DNA from: Croceivirga lutea | Lineage (GTDB): Bacteria > Bacteroidota > Bacteroidia > Flavobacteriales > Flavobacteriaceae | DNA: 64,000 nt | NCBI RefSeq assembly: GCF_014235875.1 | Contig: NZ_JACJUK010000010.1 | Coordinates: forward strand, 1-64,000 | Direction of reading: 5' to 3' | Shown here: one piece after another, positions 6,654 to 49,873 of the stretch | Position numbering within the stretch: the stretch's first letter is position 1 | How the letters are laid out: each line of letters starts with the position of its first letter | Position numbers and translations under genes: made by a program | The notes under the pieces: generated by a model | The model's database searches: none | The model's input: only the letters and a program-made list of their open reading frames with translations | What the model was told of the DNA's origin: nothing

Positions 6654-6728
6654 TCGGGGTGGCAGGATTCGAACCTGCGACCTCCTGCTCCCAAAGCAGG
6701 CGCGATAACCGGGCTACGCTACACCCCG
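6654..6728 (-). tRNA. tRNA-Pro (anticodon TGG)
   Basis: The full cloverleaf reads on the minus strand. The acceptor stem pairs CGGGGTG with CACCCCG, the anticodon arm is CCTGC-TTTGGGA-GCAGG with anticodon TGG, and the T arm carries GGTTCGAATCC. The discriminator base is A and CCA is not encoded. The 3' end faces the integrase gene; a further 7-bp hairpin (6635-6650) sits right against it. Confidence 0.95.
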
Positions 6729-6754: not shown

Positions 6755-6838
6755 CGGAGAGACTGGGACTCGAACCCAGGCGACAGTTACCCGCCGACAG
6801 ATTAGCAATCTGCTCCGTTACCACTCCGGCACCTCTCC
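6755..6838 (-). tRNA. tRNA-Ser (anticodon GCT)
   Basis: A class II tRNA on the minus strand, 26 bp upstream of tRNA-Pro. The 5' acceptor strand is GGAGAGG and the 3' strand TCTCTCC. The anticodon arm is CAGAT-TGCTA-ATCTG with anticodon GCT, followed by the long variable arm (CGGCGGGTAACTGTCG) and the T arm GGGTTCGAGTCCC. The discriminator is G and CCA is not encoded. It reads AGC and AGT codons. Confidence 0.95.
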
Positions 6839-20773: not shown

Positions 20774-22300
20774 TTATTCTTCTCTGGGTTGTTCTGGCTC
20801 AGTAAACAATTTCATAAAAGCTTCTGGTAAATGTTCAATTAAGGTTGAGGCAATTACTGCTTCATAACCCATTTTAGAGGCAGCAATATCTGCAGCAAAT
20901 CCGTGCAGAAAAACTCCAAAAATTGATGCATTTAATGGATTGTACCCTTGGGCAATTAAACCACCAATAATACCGGCCAAAACATCACCGCTTCCGGCGG
21001 TTGCTAAACCTGGATTACCTGTAGTATTTACAAAGCCTTTATCTTGATAAATTGTAATAGTATGCGCTCCTTTGAGCACCACAATAACATCATGTTTTTT
21101 AGAGAACTCTTTAGCTAAAGCTAATTTTTCAAAATCATCTTTCCAATTACCTATCAATCGTTTTAACTCACCAGGATGTGGTGTTAATACTGTGCCTGGA
21201 GTAATTAAATCTTGCAATTCATTTTCTGATGCAAGAATATTTATAGCATCAGCATCTAAAACTAATGGTCTTTTATTGTTCTTTAAAAAAGCCTTGAATG
21301 TTTTCTTAGTTTTGTCATGGGTACCTAAGCCCATACCTGCTACAATCACAGTAAATAGACTGGTTTCTTCAATAGCAATGAGTTGTTCTTCACCGCTAGT
21401 TCTCACCATAACTTCAGGTAAGGCAGACTGTAATGGAAGGTATCCACAATTTGGCACTAAAGCGGTAACCAAGCCGGCTCCAATTTTCAAACATGCTTTA
21501 GCACCCAATTGAACTGCTCCTATTTTACCATAAGAACCTCCAATAACCAAAGCATGACCATAATCGCCTTTATGAGAAAATTTATTGCGTGGCCTATACA
21601 TGGGCAATACTTCATACTTACTTATTAACTCAAAGTCAGTTTCTTGGTGTTGAATAAACCCTTGGTCTAAACCAATATCCAATAACTGCCATTGTGTTAT
21701 AAATGGACCTGTTTCTGGAAGAAAAAACACCAACTTAGGTAACTGAAAACTTAATACATAGTTAGCTTTAATAACTGCCGAAAAATCTTCTGTAGCCTTA
21801 TCGGCAAACATACCAGATGGAATATCCACAGCTAATATGTAAGCTTTTGAAGAATTGATATGGGTAATTAAATTTTTCACCCAAACATCTGGATTTCTAT
21901 TTAATCCAATACCAAAAATAGCATCCACTATAAAGTCGTTTGGTGAAATCTCAGGTAATACAGAGTCTGAGTTTAGAACAACTGGCCAACATTTTCGCTC
22001 TTTAAGTCTATCTAGATTTATTAAAAAATCTTTTGAACGTTTTTCACTATAATTAACAACATAAACAGCAATATCATAATTGTGTTCTAATAAATATCTA
22101 GCCAAGGCAATACCGTCTCCTCCGTTATTACCAATTCCGCAAAAGAGATGGATTTTTAGATTAGCTCCTTTAAGATTTGCATCTAACCATTGAAATAGTT
22201 GAGATGCAGCTCTTTCCATAAGTTCATCACTAGAAATTTGCTGATTTTCAATTGTGAATTTATCAGCCAAATAAATCTGTTCGCCAGTAAAAATTTTCAT
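20774..22300 (-). CDS. nnr: Bifunctional NAD(P)H-hydrate repair enzyme (epimerase/dehydratase)
   Basis: A protein of 508 residues. The N-terminal epimerase domain (about 1-215) has IHLFCGIGNNGGDGIALARYL and FIVDAIFGIGLNR. The C-terminal ADP-dependent dehydratase domain (about 225-500) contains ALVIGGSYGKIGA, TPHPGELKRL and the signature NTTGNPGLATAGSGDVLAG with the catalytic Asp. The enzyme repairs hydrated NADH and NADPH by epimerising the R and S forms and dehydrating S-NAD(P)HX. It stands alone between the STAS-like gene and the threonine operon, which is divergent from it. Confidence 0.95.
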   Translation of the reverse strand: MKIFTGEQIYLADKFTIENQQISSDELMERAASQLFQWLDANLKGANLKIHLFCGIGNNGGDGIALARYLLEHNYDIAVYVVNYSEKRSKDFLINLDRLKERKCWPVVLNSDSVLPEISPNDFIVDAIFGIGLNRNPDVWVKNLITHINSSKAYILAVDIPSGMFADKATEDFSAVIKANYVLSFQLPKLVFFLPETGPFITQWQLLDIGLDQGFIQHQETDFELISKYEVLPMYRPRNKFSHKGDYGHALVIGGSYGKIGAVQLGAKACLKIGAGLVTALVPNCGYLPLQSALPEVMVRTSGEEQLIAIEETSLFTVIVAGMGLGTHDKTKKTFKAFLKNNKRPLVLDADAINILASENELQDLITPGTVLTPHPGELKRLIGNWKDDFEKLALAKEFSKKHDVIVVLKGAHTITIYQDKGFVNTTGNPGLATAGSGDVLAGIIGGLIAQGYNPLNASIFGVFLHGFAADIAASKMGYEAVIASTLIEHLPEAFMKLFTEPEQPREE

Positions 22301-22343
22301 TCTTTAAAAAATTCGTTAGATAATTAACGATTATTGAAAAATT

Positions 22344-22493
22344 AGTATTGTGGGTTGTTCAAGGGGTTCGAAAATACTACTTTTAACCCATCTCTTTTAA
22401 AGATTATGCAAACAACGCTAAAAAATACTACCACTTTTACTACAACCCCTTTGGGGTTATAGTCATATTATATATCCGCGCGCATAATTTTTT
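22344..22493 (+). promoter_or_regulatory. Threonine-operon attenuator (leader RNA)
   Basis: The thrA leader contains a Thr-rich leader peptide and competing structures. AACCCC (22444-22449) and GGGGTT (22453-22458) form a tight hairpin overlapping the end of the leader peptide. AAGGGGTT (22361-22368) is perfectly complementary to AACCCCTT (22444-22451) and could form an alternative. AGTATT (22344-22349) can pair with AATACT at 22373-22378 or at 22424-22429, and TGGGTT (22351-22356) with AACCCA (22385-22390). A T-run lies at 22488-22493, just before thrA. Transcription-attenuation by threonyl-tRNA level is the natural reading. The precise terminator helix is not certain. Confidence 0.7.
22406..22462 (+). 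CDS. thrL: Threonine operon leader peptide
   Basis: An 18-codon open frame, ATG at 22406 and TAG at 22460-22462, encodes MQTTLKNTTTFTTTPLGL. Eight of 18 residues are Thr, with no Ile. It lies 51 bp upstream of the first threonine-biosynthesis gene. Enrichment for the pathway's end product is the hallmark of a ribosome-mediated attenuator, as in enterobacterial thrL. The last Thr codons run into the AACCCC arm of a hairpin, so a ribosome stalled for lack of charged tRNA-Thr would block that arm. Confidence 0.82.
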   Translation: MQTTLKNTTTFTTTPLGL

Positions 22494-22513
22494 ATATTCC
22501 TAAAAGCCAATAA

Positions 22514-24958
22514 ATGAAAGTTTTAAAATTTGGTGGCACATCTGTAGCCAACGCAAAAAATATAGCTCTTGTAAGAGCAATAATTAAATCTGAAAGTCGA
22601 GATAAAATTGCAGTGGTAGTTTCTGCTTTAGGTGGAGTAACAGACACGTTGTTAAAAGCTTTAGAACGTGCAGCAAACAAAGATTTGATTTATAAAGAGA
22701 GTTTAAAAGAAATTGAAAGTCGCCACTTAGATACCGTAAAAGAATTAATACCCATAACCAAACAAAGTGGAGTATTAAGTTGGGTAAAAAGTGAACTTAA
22801 TAAATTAGAGACCCTTATAGAAGGGGCTTTTTTAATTGGAGAAATTACGCCAAGATTGTCTGATAACGTAGTAAGCTATGGTGAAATTTTATCATCATAC
22901 ATTATTGCAGAATATTTAAAATCTAGTGATTTAGATGCTGATTTCAAAAGTGGAAGAGCGCTAATAACTACTGACGATAACTTTGGTAAAGCTACAGTAG
23001 ATTTTGAGCGTACTAATAAAACTTGTCAGTCCTATTTTTTAAATTGCCCTCAACAGATTACCATTGTTCCTGGTTTTATTGCGTCATCTAAATCTGGAAA
23101 AAACACAACCTTAGGTAGAGGAGGCTCTGATTACACCGCAGCAATTATTGCCGCAGCTGTAGATGCAAAAGAATTGCAAATTTGGACAGATGTTAGCGGA
23201 ATGTTCACGGCAAATCCAAAGCTAGTAAAACAAGCCAAATGTGTAGAAAAAATTTCTTATGAAGAGGCAATGGAGCTATCGCATTTTGGTGCCAAAGTAC
23301 TTTATCCTCCAACTGTGCAACCCGTTTTAGCAAAAGAAATTCCTATTCTTATTAAAAACACCTTTGCCCCAGAAGATGAGGGCACATTAATAACTAAAAA
23401 CGCTAATGGTTCAGAAAAAGCAGTAAGAGGTATAAGTCATATTGGAGGTATTGCCTTATTATCATTAGAAGGTCCAAGTATGATTGGAATACCTGGGGTA
23501 TCTAAACGTTTTTTTGAAACCCTTTCTACAGCTAACATTAGTGTGGTTTTAATAACACAAGCTTCATCTGAACATTCGATATGTATTGGTATTAATGCTA
23601 AAGAGGCTCCTATTGCAAAAAAGGTTTTAAACGAAACTTTTGAATATGAAATTGCAACCAAAAAGTTAAAACCAATTATTGTTGAAGAGAATCTTTCCAT
23701 AATAGCATTAGTTGGTGAAAACATGAAAAGCCATCAAGGCCTTAGTGGAAAAATGTTTAGCACTTTAGGTAAAAACAACGTTAATATTAGAGCCATTGCA
23801 CAAGGGGCTTCTGAACGAAATATTTCTGCAGTAATTCATGAAAATGATGTTAAAAAGGCACTGAACTCTTTACATGAAATCTTCTTTGAAGAAATCACAA
23901 AACAAGTCAATTTATTTATAGTAGGTGTAGGTAATGTTGGTGCAAAACTATTAGCACAATTAGAACAACAAAAACAATATTTAAAAGAAGAGCATAAAAT
24001 GAATTTGAGAGTAATTGGGCTCTCTAATTCAAAAAAAATGGTTTTTGATGAAAACGGTATATCCTTAAAAAATTGGAAAGAAACTTTAGAAAATGGAGAG
24101 TCAACAAACCTAGAAAGGTTCACTGAAAAGATAAAAGAATTAAACTTCAGAAATAGCATTTTTGTTGATAACACTGCTAATGCCACCGTTGCCGAGCATT
24201 ACCACAATTTTTTAGGTAATAGTATTGCGGTGGTTACCTGTAATAAAATTGCTTGTTCATCAAACATTGCGTATTACCAAAAGTTAAAGGAGTTATCAAA
24301 AAAATATAACGCACCATTTTTATTTGAAACTAATGTTGGTGCAGGCTTACCTATTTTAGACACGTTAAAATATCTAATTGCATCTGGTGATAGAGTTCAT
24401 AAAATACAAGCGGTTTTATCTGGTAGTTTAAACTTTGTATTTAATAATTTTAATAATACTAATACCTTTCATGACATTGTTAAAAAAGCCCAAGAGGATG
24501 GCTATACAGAACCAGACCCAAAGATTGATTTAAGCGGTATAGATGTCATGAGAAAAATCTTGATTTTAGCACGTGAGAGTGGTTACAAGATTGCAATTGA
24601 AGAAATTGAAAATGATTCTTTTCTACCACAAGAATCATTAGATACCTCTTCTAATGAAGACTTTTTTAAGACATTGATTACTTACGAAAATCGGTTTCAA
24701 CAGCTATATAAAAATGCAGCAGATAAAAATTGCAAACTTAAATATGTAGCACAATTTGAGAATGGCAACGCCAAAGTAGGTTTACAAGAAATACCTGTAG
24801 GACATGATTTTTATAGTTTGGAAGGAAGTGACAATATTGTTTTATTCTATACTGATAGATATCAAAACCAACCATTAATTATTAAAGGTGCAGGTGCAGG
24901 TGCAGACGTTACCGCATCAGGTATTTTTGCAGATATCATAAGAGCAGGAAATTTTTAA
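22514..24958 (+). CDS. thrA: Bifunctional aspartate kinase / homoserine dehydrogenase
   Basis: An 814-residue fusion. The aspartokinase domain (about 1-290) starts KVLKFGGTSVANAKNI and contains TLGRGGSDYTAA and ELSHFGAKVLYPPT. Two ACT regulatory segments lie at about 310-450. The homoserine dehydrogenase domain (about 465-814) starts with the NAD-binding FIVGVGNVGAKLL and has PDPKIDLSGIDVMRK. It phosphorylates aspartate and later reduces aspartate-semialdehyde to homoserine, and is probably feedback-inhibited by threonine through the ACT domains. First gene of thrABC, with a single base between its stop codon and the thrB ATG. Confidence 0.97.
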   Translation: MKVLKFGGTSVANAKNIALVRAIIKSESRDKIAVVVSALGGVTDTLLKALERAANKDLIYKESLKEIESRHLDTVKELIPITKQSGVLSWVKSELNKLETLIEGAFLIGEITPRLSDNVVSYGEILSSYIIAEYLKSSDLDADFKSGRALITTDDNFGKATVDFERTNKTCQSYFLNCPQQITIVPGFIASSKSGKNTTLGRGGSDYTAAIIAAAVDAKELQIWTDVSGMFTANPKLVKQAKCVEKISYEEAMELSHFGAKVLYPPTVQPVLAKEIPILIKNTFAPEDEGTLITKNANGSEKAVRGISHIGGIALLSLEGPSMIGIPGVSKRFFETLSTANISVVLITQASSEHSICIGINAKEAPIAKKVLNETFEYEIATKKLKPIIVEENLSIIALVGENMKSHQGLSGKMFSTLGKNNVNIRAIAQGASERNISAVIHENDVKKALNSLHEIFFEEITKQVNLFIVGVGNVGAKLLAQLEQQKQYLKEEHKMNLRVIGLSNSKKMVFDENGISLKNWKETLENGESTNLERFTEKIKELNFRNSIFVDNTANATVAEHYHNFLGNSIAVVTCNKIACSSNIAYYQKLKELSKKYNAPFLFETNVGAGLPILDTLKYLIASGDRVHKIQAVLSGSLNFVFNNFNNTNTFHDIVKKAQEDGYTEPDPKIDLSGIDVMRKILILARESGYKIAIEEIENDSFLPQESLDTSSNEDFFKTLITYENRFQQLYKNAADKNCKLKYVAQFENGNAKVGLQEIPVGHDFYSLEGSDNIVLFYTDRYQNQPLIIKGAGAGADVTASGIFADIIRAGNF

Positions 24959-24959
24959 G

Positions 24960-25883
24960 ATGGAAGAGATAAAAGTTTTTTGTCCGGCAACAATAGCAAA
25001 CGTTTCGTGCGGTTTTGATGTTCTGGGGCTAGCCTTAGATTCAGTTGGTGATGAAATGGTTATTCGTAAAACCAAAGAGAAGGGTATAAGAATTACTAAA
25101 ATTTTAGGTCAAAATTTACCCTTAGATGCAGAAAAAAATGTGGCTGGTGTGGCTGGCTTTGCATTATTAGCTCAAGCAGACTACAATGGTGGTTTTGAGA
25201 TTGAAATTGATAAAATAATAAAACCCGGTAGTGGTATTGGCAGTAGTGCAGCTAGTTCAGCTGGTGCTGTTTGGGGAATGAATCAACTTTTAGGAAATCC
25301 TTTTTCAGAATTAGAACTGGTGGCATTTGCTATGCAAGGCGAAAAATTAGCAAGCCTTGTTGCACATGCAGATAATGTAGCCCCTGCCCTATTTGGAGGT
25401 TTTACCTTGGTAAGAAGTTATGACCCATTAGATGTTGTAGCCGTACATACACCAAAAGAATTATTTGCTACCGTTATTCATCCACAAATAGAAGTGAAAA
25501 CAGCAGATTCAAGAAAAGTCTTAAAAACATCTATTTCTTTGCAAGACGGTATAAAACAGTGGGGTAATTTAGGAGGATTAATAACCGGTTTATTTACTGA
25601 AGATTACGATTTAATTAGCAGGTCACTGCAAGACCACATTGTTGAACCTATACGCTCAATTTTAATTCCAGGGTTTAACGATGTTAAAAAAGCAGCCCAA
25701 GCAGGTGGTGCTTTAGGTAGCGGAATATCAGGTTCAGGCCCTTCTATATTTGCCTTATCTAAAGGTGAAGAAACAGCTTTAGAAGTAGGTAAATCTATGA
25801 AAGAAGTTTACAAAAAAATAGGAATTGATTTTGAGGTTCACGTTTCAAAAATTAACACGCAAGGGTGTAAAAAAATATCATGA
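24960..25883 (+). CDS. thrB: Homoserine kinase
   Basis: A 307-residue GHMP-family kinase. The N-terminus VFCPATIANVSCGFDVLGLAL and the phosphate-binding loop PGSGIGSSAASSAG (about residues 88-101) are diagnostic, and the C-terminal GSGISGSGPSIFAL is the family's third motif. It converts homoserine to O-phosphohomoserine. It starts one base after the thrA stop and overlaps the thrC start by 4 bp (ATGA), so translation is likely coupled. Confidence 0.97.
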   Translation: MEEIKVFCPATIANVSCGFDVLGLALDSVGDEMVIRKTKEKGIRITKILGQNLPLDAEKNVAGVAGFALLAQADYNGGFEIEIDKIIKPGSGIGSSAASSAGAVWGMNQLLGNPFSELELVAFAMQGEKLASLVAHADNVAPALFGGFTLVRSYDPLDVVAVHTPKELFATVIHPQIEVKTADSRKVLKTSISLQDGIKQWGNLGGLITGLFTEDYDLISRSLQDHIVEPIRSILIPGFNDVKKAAQAGGALGSGISGSGPSIFALSKGEETALEVGKSMKEVYKKIGIDFEVHVSKINTQGCKKIS

Positions 25884-27181
25884 AGTACTACAGTTTAAAC
25901 AATGCTGACAATACAGCGAGTTTTAGAGAAGCGGTTATAAACGGAATAGCACCAGATAGGGGTTTGTATTTTCCTGCAAACATTAATGCTTTACCCCCTT
26001 CGTTTTTTGAAAAAATAGAAAATCTTTCTAATGTAGAAATAGCTTATGAGGCAATTCAACAATTTGTTGGTGATGAAATTCCAAAAGACCGGCTGTTATC
26101 TATTTTAAAAAATGTTCTAGACTTTGAATTTCCGATAGTCGAACTTACAGAGAATATAGCCACTTTAGAATTATTTCATGGTCCAACCATGGCCTTTAAA
26201 GATGTTGGTGCACGTTTTATGGCTAATTGCCTAGGATATTTTTCTGAAGGTAATAAAACCAATATAACCGTTCTTGTTGCTACATCTGGTGATACCGGTG
26301 GTGCAGTTGCTAATGGGTTTTTAGGTGTTGAAGGGGTAAGTGTTGTTATCCTTTATCCTTCAGGCAAGGTTAGCAATATTCAAGAAAAGCAATTAACTAC
26401 TTTAGGTAAAAACATAACGGCCTTTGAGGTAGAAGGAACTTTTGATGATTGCCAAAATATGGTGAAAACGGCTTTTTTAGATACAGAAATAACTTCGAAA
26501 AGCAAGTTAACTTCCGCCAACAGCATTAATGTAGCCCGCTGGTTGCCCCAATGTTTTTATTTTTTAATTGCATATAAACAAGCTAAATTAAAAGGTAAAG
26601 AAATTGTTTTTTCAGTACCCTCGGGTAATTTTGGAAATATTTGTGCAGGCATGGTAGCTCAAAAATTAGGTATGCCAGTTAAGAACTTCATTGCTGCCAC
26701 CAATGTTAATGATGTAGTACCAAATTATATGAAAAGTGGAACATATGAGCCAAAACCATCTGTAGCCACTATTTCTAATGCTATGGATGTTGGAGACCCA
26801 AGTAATTTTATTCGAATTCAAAAAATATATAACAATAACCTAGCTGAACTTCAAAAAAATCTTAGTTCATATGCTTTTACAGATAAACAAACAAAAGAAG
26901 CTATGAAGCAAGTGTATTCACAAACCGGATACTTAACTGACCCGCACGGTGCAGTTGGTTATTTAGGTGTTAAAAAATTCCAAGAACAACATCCTAATAG
27001 TTACGGCATATTTTTAGAAACTGCGCACCCCGTAAAATTTTTACCTGTCGTAAAAGAAACCATGAATTTGACTCCTGAAATTCCTTTTCAAATAAAAAAG
27101 GTAATGAACAAGCAAAAGGTTGCCTATCAGATTGCTAGTTACCAACAACTCAAAGACTATTTAGTTAACGTTTCTTCATAG
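25880..27181 (+). CDS. thrC: Threonine synthase
   Basis: A 433-residue PLP enzyme of fold type II. The PLP lysine lies in FHGPTMAFKDVGARFMA (about residue 109), with phosphate-binding ATSGDTGGAVANGF and VPSGNFGNICAGM. It turns O-phosphohomoserine into threonine, completing the pathway of the upstream two genes. Its length fits the shorter bacterial form. After its stop is a 73-bp gap carrying the gcvT promoter, so the operon ends here. Confidence 0.97.
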   Translation: MKYYSLNNADNTASFREAVINGIAPDRGLYFPANINALPPSFFEKIENLSNVEIAYEAIQQFVGDEIPKDRLLSILKNVLDFEFPIVELTENIATLELFHGPTMAFKDVGARFMANCLGYFSEGNKTNITVLVATSGDTGGAVANGFLGVEGVSVVILYPSGKVSNIQEKQLTTLGKNITAFEVEGTFDDCQNMVKTAFLDTEITSKSKLTSANSINVARWLPQCFYFLIAYKQAKLKGKEIVFSVPSGNFGNICAGMVAQKLGMPVKNFIAATNVNDVVPNYMKSGTYEPKPSVATISNAMDVGDPSNFIRIQKIYNNNLAELQKNLSSYAFTDKQTKEAMKQVYSQTGYLTDPHGAVGYLGVKKFQEQHPNSYGIFLETAHPVKFLPVVKETMNLTPEIPFQIKKVMNKQKVAYQIASYQQLKDYLVNVSS

Positions 27182-49543: not shown

Positions 49544-49564
49544 AAATATTTCAAACCAAAAAAA

Positions 49565-49869
49565 GCAGGCCATAAGCCGGATTCTGTTTACCGTTTTAAC
49601 ACGGCACCTTATCATTTATCTAGGACTTTAATTACTTAAAATCTCAATCCGCCTACCCTCCAGCTCGAGCGTGCAGCCCTCAAACACTGGTTTACGTGGC
49701 GTTTCACCGCATAGAGTTTACCTGATTTCACTACAGCCTAACTGTACTTGCTTTCTGTTGCACTTGTCCGCTCCCGAGTAAACGAGATGACGGGTGTTAC
49801 CCGCTACGCCGCACTATGGTGTCCAGACTTTCCTCCCCAAATAAAATTTGGAGCGATAAGGAGACCTGC
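49565..49869 (-). ncRNA. rnpB: RNase P RNA (bacterial class A)
   Basis: About 305 nt on the minus strand. The 5' end reads GCAGGTCTCC and the 3' end GGCCTGC, giving a 7-bp P1 helix. The conserved GGAGGAAAGTCTGGACACCAT (CR-I) follows the 5' end, and the 3' region has the conserved element complementary to ATAAGCCGGATTCTGT near 49572. The RNA is the catalytic part of the tRNA 5'-maturation ribozyme. A T-run follows the 3' end. It is opposite in direction to rsmD and dnaX on either side. Confidence 0.95.
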
Positions 49870-49873
49870 GATG

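Follow-up and report, generated by a model that had tools for sequence, protein, structure and literature searches.

A threonine-rich leader with a hairpin at its stop codon: a candidate attenuator of thrABC in Flavobacteriaceae that departs from the canonical design

The thrABC operon of Croceivirga lutea is preceded by a short, threonine-rich leader frame whose stop codon overlaps a GC-rich hairpin (hereinafter P3), followed at a near-fixed distance by a TATAT-containing element and then by a G-poor spacer lacking a canonical terminator. We posit that the region 22390–22513 of the window (the whole stretch of 64,000 nucleotides analyzed here) constitutes the predicted leader of the thrABC transcript and functions as an attenuator switched by P3. 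Judging from sequence comparisons, we assign this explanation as a whole a probability of about 0.47.

The leader frame upstream of thrABC

The predicted features of the locus, in window coordinates, are:

22355–22385, plus strand: predicted promoter of the Bacteroidota −33/−7 type (TTG at 22355–22357, 20 nt, then TACTTTTA at 22378–22385)
22406–22462, plus strand: thrL-like leader frame of 18 codons, ATG to TAG, with eight Thr and no Ile
22427–22447, plus strand: block of control codons (codons 8–14, T T T F T T T) that adjoins and enters the hairpin
22439–22463, plus strand: hairpin P3, overlapping the stop codon (core AACCCC/GGGGTT at 22444–22458, extension ACTA/TAGT)
22463–22513, plus strand: spacer to thrA, G-poor and with C over G (C/G 2.0 in the window), without a canonical terminator
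22471–22482, plus strand: TATAT..CCG element at a near-fixed distance from P3
22482–22493, plus strand: GCATAATTTTTT, containing a U-run and complementary to the leader start at 22399–22409
22514–24958, plus strand: thrA, bifunctional aspartate kinase/homoserine dehydrogenase I (NF006959, 1060.9 bits against a cut-off of 726)
24960–25883, plus strand: thrB, homoserine kinase (curated model)
25880–27181, plus strand: thrC, threonine synthase (curated model)

Direct translation of the leader frame yields MQTTLKNTTTFTTTPLGL followed by the stop codon, and 51 bp (22463–22513) separate this stop from the ATG of thrA at 22514. A first-pass annotation of this DNA had described the 18-codon frame, its eight Thr codons and its distance from thrA, all of which are exact to the base, as well as the GC-rich hairpin with arms at 22444–22449 and 22453–22458 overlapping the 3′ end of the frame, the letters of which are likewise present.

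Several other features of the window and the genome may be recorded here. The divergent gene on the minus strand at 20774–22300, which by resemblance we take to be an nnr-like gene of NAD(P)HX repair, lies about 90 bp from the predicted thr start. A terminator-like sequence, GCTCTTACAAGAGC followed by TATATTTTTT, is found on the minus strand at 22565–22578, inside the start of thrA. The minus strand also carries RNase P RNA class A (49558–49872) and two tRNA genes (6654–6728 and 6755–6838). All 11 genomes of the genus encode a second aspartate kinase/homoserine dehydrogenase, an ORF of about 1130–1150 aa with 37–39% to ThrA (loci L013–L023, that of the C. lutea genome being L021 on contig C15).

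Conservation of the threonine/isoleucine leader

Our comparison covers 160 upstream regions of thrA orthologs, nearly all from genomes labeled as Flavobacteriaceae genera (11 loci from the genus, 29 other family loci, 40 more family stretches and 80 named loci); removal of one incomplete region and eight duplicates leaves 151 distinct ones. A strict rule, which demands a CCC..GGG hairpin at the stop and at least four Thr/Ile per eight codons while ignoring the start codon, is satisfied by 134 of the 151, as compared to 0/151 reversed, 3/151 reverse-complemented and 0/755 shuffled sequences. A loose rule, asking for a small ATG frame that closes at a CCC..GGG hairpin, recovers 145 of the 160, and 143 of these have at least four Thr+Ile. 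The Thr-rich frame before thrA thus withstands the comparison with relatives that the first-pass annotation had recommended as a check, and the locus displays what is expected of an attenuator in this respect, namely a short frame rich in end-product codons ahead of a biosynthetic operon and retained in relatives. As gauged by these sequence controls, the conservation of the leader is beyond chance.

Visual inspection of the 17 regions that fail the strict rule finds the hairpin still present in 12. Ten of these fall short in Thr or Thr/Ile codons (L003, L005, L030, L044, L056, L088, L089, L110, L136 and L137), one has a longer loop (L054) and one a later stop (L157). In L121 the left arm is broken, and no hairpin of the P3 kind was seen by eye in L037, L084, L112 and L153 (4/17 misses). 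Within the genus, 9 of the 11 loci satisfy the strict rule, the other two (L003 and L005) having the hairpin with fewer Thr codons. L003, the nearest relative by ThrA (74%), has an even shorter leader, MSVLNKDLNFFTTP, with only two Thr, as TTP.

To describe codon usage we used 100 non-redundant leaders, derived from 137 that carry at least four Thr+Ile, match the promoter box and have a spacer of at most 130 nt. Their share of Thr+Ile at codons −1 to −7 from the hairpin is 0.89, 0.80, 0.48, 0.70, 0.66, 0.53 and 0.42, and at codons −8 to −11 it is 0.20–0.33. Base variability in the leader frame climbs over codon positions 1, 2 and 3 (1.28, 1.56 and 1.69 bits); a frame count of 2/135/88 was set aside since CCCC runs turn its third figure into an artifact. 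Ile is present in 95 of the 100 leaders (a set pre-selected for at least four Thr+Ile), and thus the Thr-only, 18-codon form of the window is best viewed as a shortened copy. Hence, the absence of Ile codons pointed out in the first-pass annotation is a property of the window copy and not of the family. By comparative standards, it is nearly certain that the thrABC leader region is a Thr/Ile-sensing leader.

The hairpin at the leader stop

The core of P3 pairs AACCCC (22444–22449) with GGGGTT (22453–22458) around a TTT loop. In the predicted fold it is extended by ACTA (22439–22442) pairing with TAGT (22460–22463), with −11.3 kcal/mol and a z-score of −2.37, so that the stop codon itself would be paired; the whole-leader fold of the window has a z-score of −2.39. 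P3 can lengthen in folds to 10 pairs, both for the window and for several members of the Algibacter-type group. The left arm starts within the last control codon. Across relatives the hairpin at the stop persists while its register shifts, with CCCC-UUU-GGGG preceding the stop or, in other families, the stop lying within the loop. The ends of the leader peptides vary (TTPLG, ITPFGV, TTLWGC and ITP), which argues that it is the hairpin, rather than the peptide tail, that is kept. RNAalifold, applied to two groups of 34 and 49 sequences, recovered P3 only, among the matches listed. A search of 21 genomes with CCCCTTTGGGGT-N5-16-ATAT gave five matches, each before thrA, with none in the reversed control.

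The predicted promoter and the upstream complementary segment

In 99 of 143 leaders the motif TAnnTTT[GA] occurs 24–30 nt ahead of the ATG of the frame (2.8 in shuffled sequences), and a TTG lies 18–20 nt before this −7 box in 75 of the 133 leaders with a box (shuffled 5.25). For these counts the nearest TAnnTTT[GA] was taken with no built-in preference; an earlier choice of boxes that favored TTTG and TTG had given 117 and 83 of 137, and those counts were set aside. The −7 box of the window has one mismatch to TAnnTTTG, in the last base, the motif itself being conserved in relatives. In Flavobacterium psychrophilum the −7 box is placed at −12 to −5 in the accessible portion of a published study (Guerin et al. 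2021, PMC9723704), which places the predicted transcription start of the window near 22390.

The first-pass annotation had also drawn attention to an upstream segment, AAGGGGTT at 22361–22368, as perfectly complementary to the left arm. The complementarity, to 22444–22451, is there in the letters, but a function is not borne out by the comparison, as the arm is not conserved. This segment sits between the −33 TTG and the −7 box, upstream of the predicted start at about 22390, and thus would not be transcribed if the promoter is right. GGGG is found between 35 nt before the −7 box and the start in only 4/137 leaders, and within the transcribed leader ahead of the hairpin in 2/137. Accordingly, we rejected the segment as an antiterminator arm and regard it as promoter spacer. 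An antiterminator pairing that would exclude a terminator was not found, the upstream arm not being conserved and the long-range helix P1 (see below) not rising above its null.

Absence of a U-run terminator and the contrast with hisG

We searched for intrinsic terminators with a rule requiring at least five pairs, at least three of them G-C, followed by 5 T in 8. Between P3 and thrA it is matched in 35 of 130 leaders, as compared to 26 of 130 with shuffled spacers, i.e., a U-run intrinsic terminator before the first gene does not stand out from background; another run of the local-terminator count over the same interval gave 75/137 (0.55) against 0.47 for shuffled sequences. In the leader of the window no plus-strand terminator was found. 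The T6 run at 22488–22493, which the first-pass annotation had noted 30 nt past the hairpin and viewed as the terminator's U-run, does exist, but we rejected it as a terminator tail for want of a plus-strand terminator. In the fold of the window 22482–22492 pairs with the leader start at 22399–22409, a pairing that is not a common feature among the relatives folded.

The same rule is matched upstream of hisG in 26/26 loci, hisG being present in 26 of the 31 genomes searched. In the C. lutea genome the hisG leader (L179, contig C11) reads MTKYHVHHHTFTIAQAR followed by ACCCGTTTGAGCAATCAAACGGGTTTTTTT. Like the thr leader, the hisG attenuator of the same genomes includes a short frame enriched in codons for its end product; unlike it, L179 combines a CTCAAGCG segment with a 12-pair terminator bearing a U-run. 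A His-rich leader was found by rule in 25 of the 26 hisG loci, which also have a CTCAAGCG-like segment, and a U-run terminator in all 26. This indicates that the canonical type is native to the family and that the thr leader departs from it. As a separate observation, the regions upstream of ilvD (22 loci) offered no clear leader peptide and several distant U-run hairpins; those lying some way before ilvD in relatives (L292, L299, L300, L301 and L305) are perhaps another attenuator.

These data bear directly on the alternative that P3 is itself a weak intrinsic terminator, in which an AU-rich tail (UAUAUAU, UAUUCUUC) replaces the U-run and the ribosome occludes the hairpin with no need of Rho. 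The reach of P3 to as many as 10 pairs in the window and several Algibacter-type relatives is in keeping with this, as are the fair tails of some relatives (e.g., L007, TACCCCTTTGGGGTA followed by ATTTTTCTAT) and the fact that 33 of the 35 terminator-like matches between P3 and thrA are P3 itself with a T-rich tail. Nevertheless, the near-background frequency of such matches, in a family that uses U-runs at every hisG locus, renders this alternative unlikely.

The spacer: a TATAT element, biased composition and further structures

Downstream of P3, the TATAT..CCG element attains a score of 7.96 against 4.4–4.8 in shuffled sequences (97 non-redundant of 159 regions). It lies at a median of 10 nt past P3 with a MAD of 1 (87/100 leaders scoring at least 4). 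The window copy scores 12.0 and lies 14 nt after GGGG and 7 nt after the extended stem. When leaders with the stop next to or within P3 (n = 59) are set against those in which it comes at least 4 nt later (n = 19), the distance from P3 to TATAT is 10 in both, while that from the stop to TATAT drops from 11 to 6. The spacing in these sequences indicates that the element is tied to the hairpin and not to the stop codon. A hairpin-to-element distance of about 10 nt suits an RNA polymerase with the hairpin in its exit channel.

The spacer has a C/G ratio of 2.55 and 7% G, as compared to 1.04 and 16% for the regions preceding 313 other ORFs; in further controls the ratio is 1.1–1.4 in 122 stricter intergenic regions and 0.42 in 25 hisG leaders. 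Outside Flavobacteriaceae, C/G is below 1 in 3/16 P3-type leaders. The C. lutea genome encodes rho (PF07497 match), and the co-occurrence of C-rich, G-poor untranslated RNA with a rho gene is what a Rho-dependent attenuator would have, though it is an indirect indication. Alternatively, the scarcity of G could simply serve to leave the RNA single-stranded, or to prevent it from pairing with the Thr codons, which are rich in C.

Additional helices were sought by a column scan of the Algibacter-type group (34 sequences), where a mid-leader hairpin, P2, came first (1.02) and a spacer hairpin, P4, second (0.67), against a maximum of 0.39 over 15 column shuffles, the measure being the sum of compensatory fractions; since column shuffles ignore relatedness, the figures for P2 and P4 are optimistic. 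A long-range helix, P1, which pairs leader codons 5–9 (CGGAC) with GUCCG of the spacer, was seen in folds of the Maribacter/Flagellimonas-type group (49 sequences). Matched leader–spacer duplexes are better than mismatched ones by 0.98 ± 0.28 kcal/mol (n = 106), and the Thr block gives nothing against the spacer (−0.27 ± 0.24). Column covariation for P1 in these 49 sequences is 0.24–0.26, below the null maximum of 0.54. Thus, P1, while suggestive in the folds and in the matched-versus-mismatched test, was rejected as it fails the covariation null.

One could still envisage that such downstream or long-range structure, P4 or P1, takes the decision, with P3 serving only as a pause or bridge, and the covariation of P4 and P2 and the advantage of matched duplexes would accord with this. 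We consider it improbable: P1 does not exceed its null in the Maribacter/Flagellimonas-type group, the covariation figures of P2 and P4 are optimistic, the Thr block shows no pairing with the spacer, no regular U-run follows P4, and neither helix, P1 or P4, stands out clearly in the window.

Distribution beyond Flavobacteriaceae

Among 22 class-level loci outside Flavobacteriaceae, inspected by eye, six are of the P3 type, two have the stop in the loop, four look canonical and ten have none of these. Among 44 further outside loci the corresponding numbers are 10, 5 and 3, with none in the stretch read for 26. Some of the leader frames outside the family were taken to start with GTG or TTG. In the set of 44, the P3 type is found in families f2 and f35 and in 5/8 sampled loci of f77, which belongs to another class; the stop-in-loop form in f16 and f48; and the canonical type in f39. 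A clear TATAT element is seen in f77 and f2, but it scores below 3 in L201, L205, L218, L219 and L245.

The stop-in-loop Thr leaders (L208, L211, L249 and L258–L261) are exemplified by CGGGGUAACCCG, CGGGGUGACCCG and CCCGGUAACCGGG; by eye, L249 and L260 have a U-run hairpin further downstream too. Canonical-looking Thr leaders with a downstream terminator hairpin before thrA are seen in L210 (with CTTCTTC in place of a pure U-run as its terminator tail), L213, L215, L217 and L262–L264. The occurrence of both types at thrA implies that the same operon has canonical or terminator-less leaders depending on the lineage, and that the two designs replace each other before the same gene.

Proposed mechanism

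We propose that the leader would sense charged Thr-tRNA and, in most relatives, Ile-tRNA too. Under low threonine, a ribosome that stalls at the late Thr codons would cover the left arm of P3; as this arm starts within the last of these codons, a ribosome held there would keep P3 open, and RNA polymerase would proceed into thrA. With ample threonine, the ribosome would finish and depart, allowing P3 to fold close behind RNA polymerase, which would thereby be paused at the TATAT element. Transcription would then end, most likely through Rho acting on the C-rich, unstructured RNA of the leader and spacer.

The components of this scheme differ in strength. We are inclined to accept P3 as a switch acting on RNA polymerase, given its position and its tie to the TATAT element. 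Rho is the first guess for the agent of termination in view of the G-poor, C-over-G RNA and the rho gene, and its role is a possibility to which we give somewhat less than even odds. A ribosome terminating at the stop codon would also melt P3, and with a stall at the earliest Thr codons P3 would stay free; thus, the sign of the switch hangs on timing. P3 is also short, and the 17/151 regions failing the strict rule include the closest ThrA relative, both points against this explanation. More tentatively, we suggest that it represents a two-state attenuator with neither terminator nor antiterminator, comprising one stop-codon hairpin, a TATAT element 10 nt away, occlusion by the ribosome and a finish by Rho, which would be old, present in at least two Bacteroidota classes and housed in genomes that also have canonical attenuators.

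That the leader might instead control thrA translation or mRNA decay could be argued from the missing terminator and from the fold of the window, in which the leader start pairs with the spacer. However, excess structure is absent from the 45 nt immediately preceding thrA (mean z 0.06), the leader stop lies 51–111 nt from thrA, and the P3–TATAT distance fits RNA polymerase better than a ribosome, leaving a regulatory effect at these levels improbable relative to the proposed action on transcription.

Relation to known systems and significance

In E. coli, thrABC is preceded by thrL, a leader frame rich in Thr and Ile. The leader described here resembles it in having a Thr/Ile-rich frame before thrABC, but has no U-run terminator and no downstream antiterminator arm, and its hairpin overlaps the leader stop. 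An Rfam scan of 22300–22560 with E-values up to 10 returned three matches, the best at E 0.92 and all far below gathering scores, none of them being Thr_leader (RF00506). Of the thrL-like ribosome-mediated attenuation put forward in the first-pass annotation, the conserved Thr-rich frame with its paired end survives, and the antiterminator/terminator switch does not: a canonical attenuator is highly improbable here, for all the Thr-rich frame, the canonical-looking thr designs elsewhere in the phylum and the hisG attenuator of the same genome, given that no terminator rises above background, no antiterminator is conserved and even at E 10 there is no Thr_leader match.

A parallel for the proposed termination step might be the tnaC system of E. 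coli, where a stalled ribosome governs Rho-dependent control, and free Trp is sensed through nascent-peptide arrest. The likeness is that ribosome position would set the access of Rho to RNA near the leader stop; the difference is that hungry codons would be sensed here and that the part of Rho is putative.

Leader-peptide attenuation as such has precedent in the family: the accessible portion of Guerin et al. (2021, PMC9723704) speaks of "strong clues" for it in amino-acid operons of F. psychrophilum, a case of the same kind in the same family, and includes pheA and hisG in the conserved 5′ elements it names, with no mention in that portion of thrA or of the P3/TATAT design. Leader-peptide-like short frames are also described in 5′ UTRs of B. 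thetaiotaomicron (PMC7366714, in the part accessible). Naville and Gautheret (2010, PMC2965389), as far as that paper is accessible, give leader-peptide systems as known in Proteobacteria and Actinobacteria and add Firmicutes; its main text contains none of the words Bacteroidetes, thrA and threonine. In the titles and abstract openings of mainly open-access literature we found no thr leader of Bacteroidota. Thus, with attenuation in Flavobacteriaceae already published, going by the portion of PMC9723704 cited above, the new part would be the non-canonical thr variant.

As attenuation is often sought by its U-run terminator, a terminator-less design would escape such scans. If the proposed reading is true, many Bacteroidota would control threonine synthesis by a contest between ribosome and RNA polymerase simpler than that of the textbook, and the hairpin with its fixed-distance element would offer a handle on pausing and Rho action in Bacteroidota.
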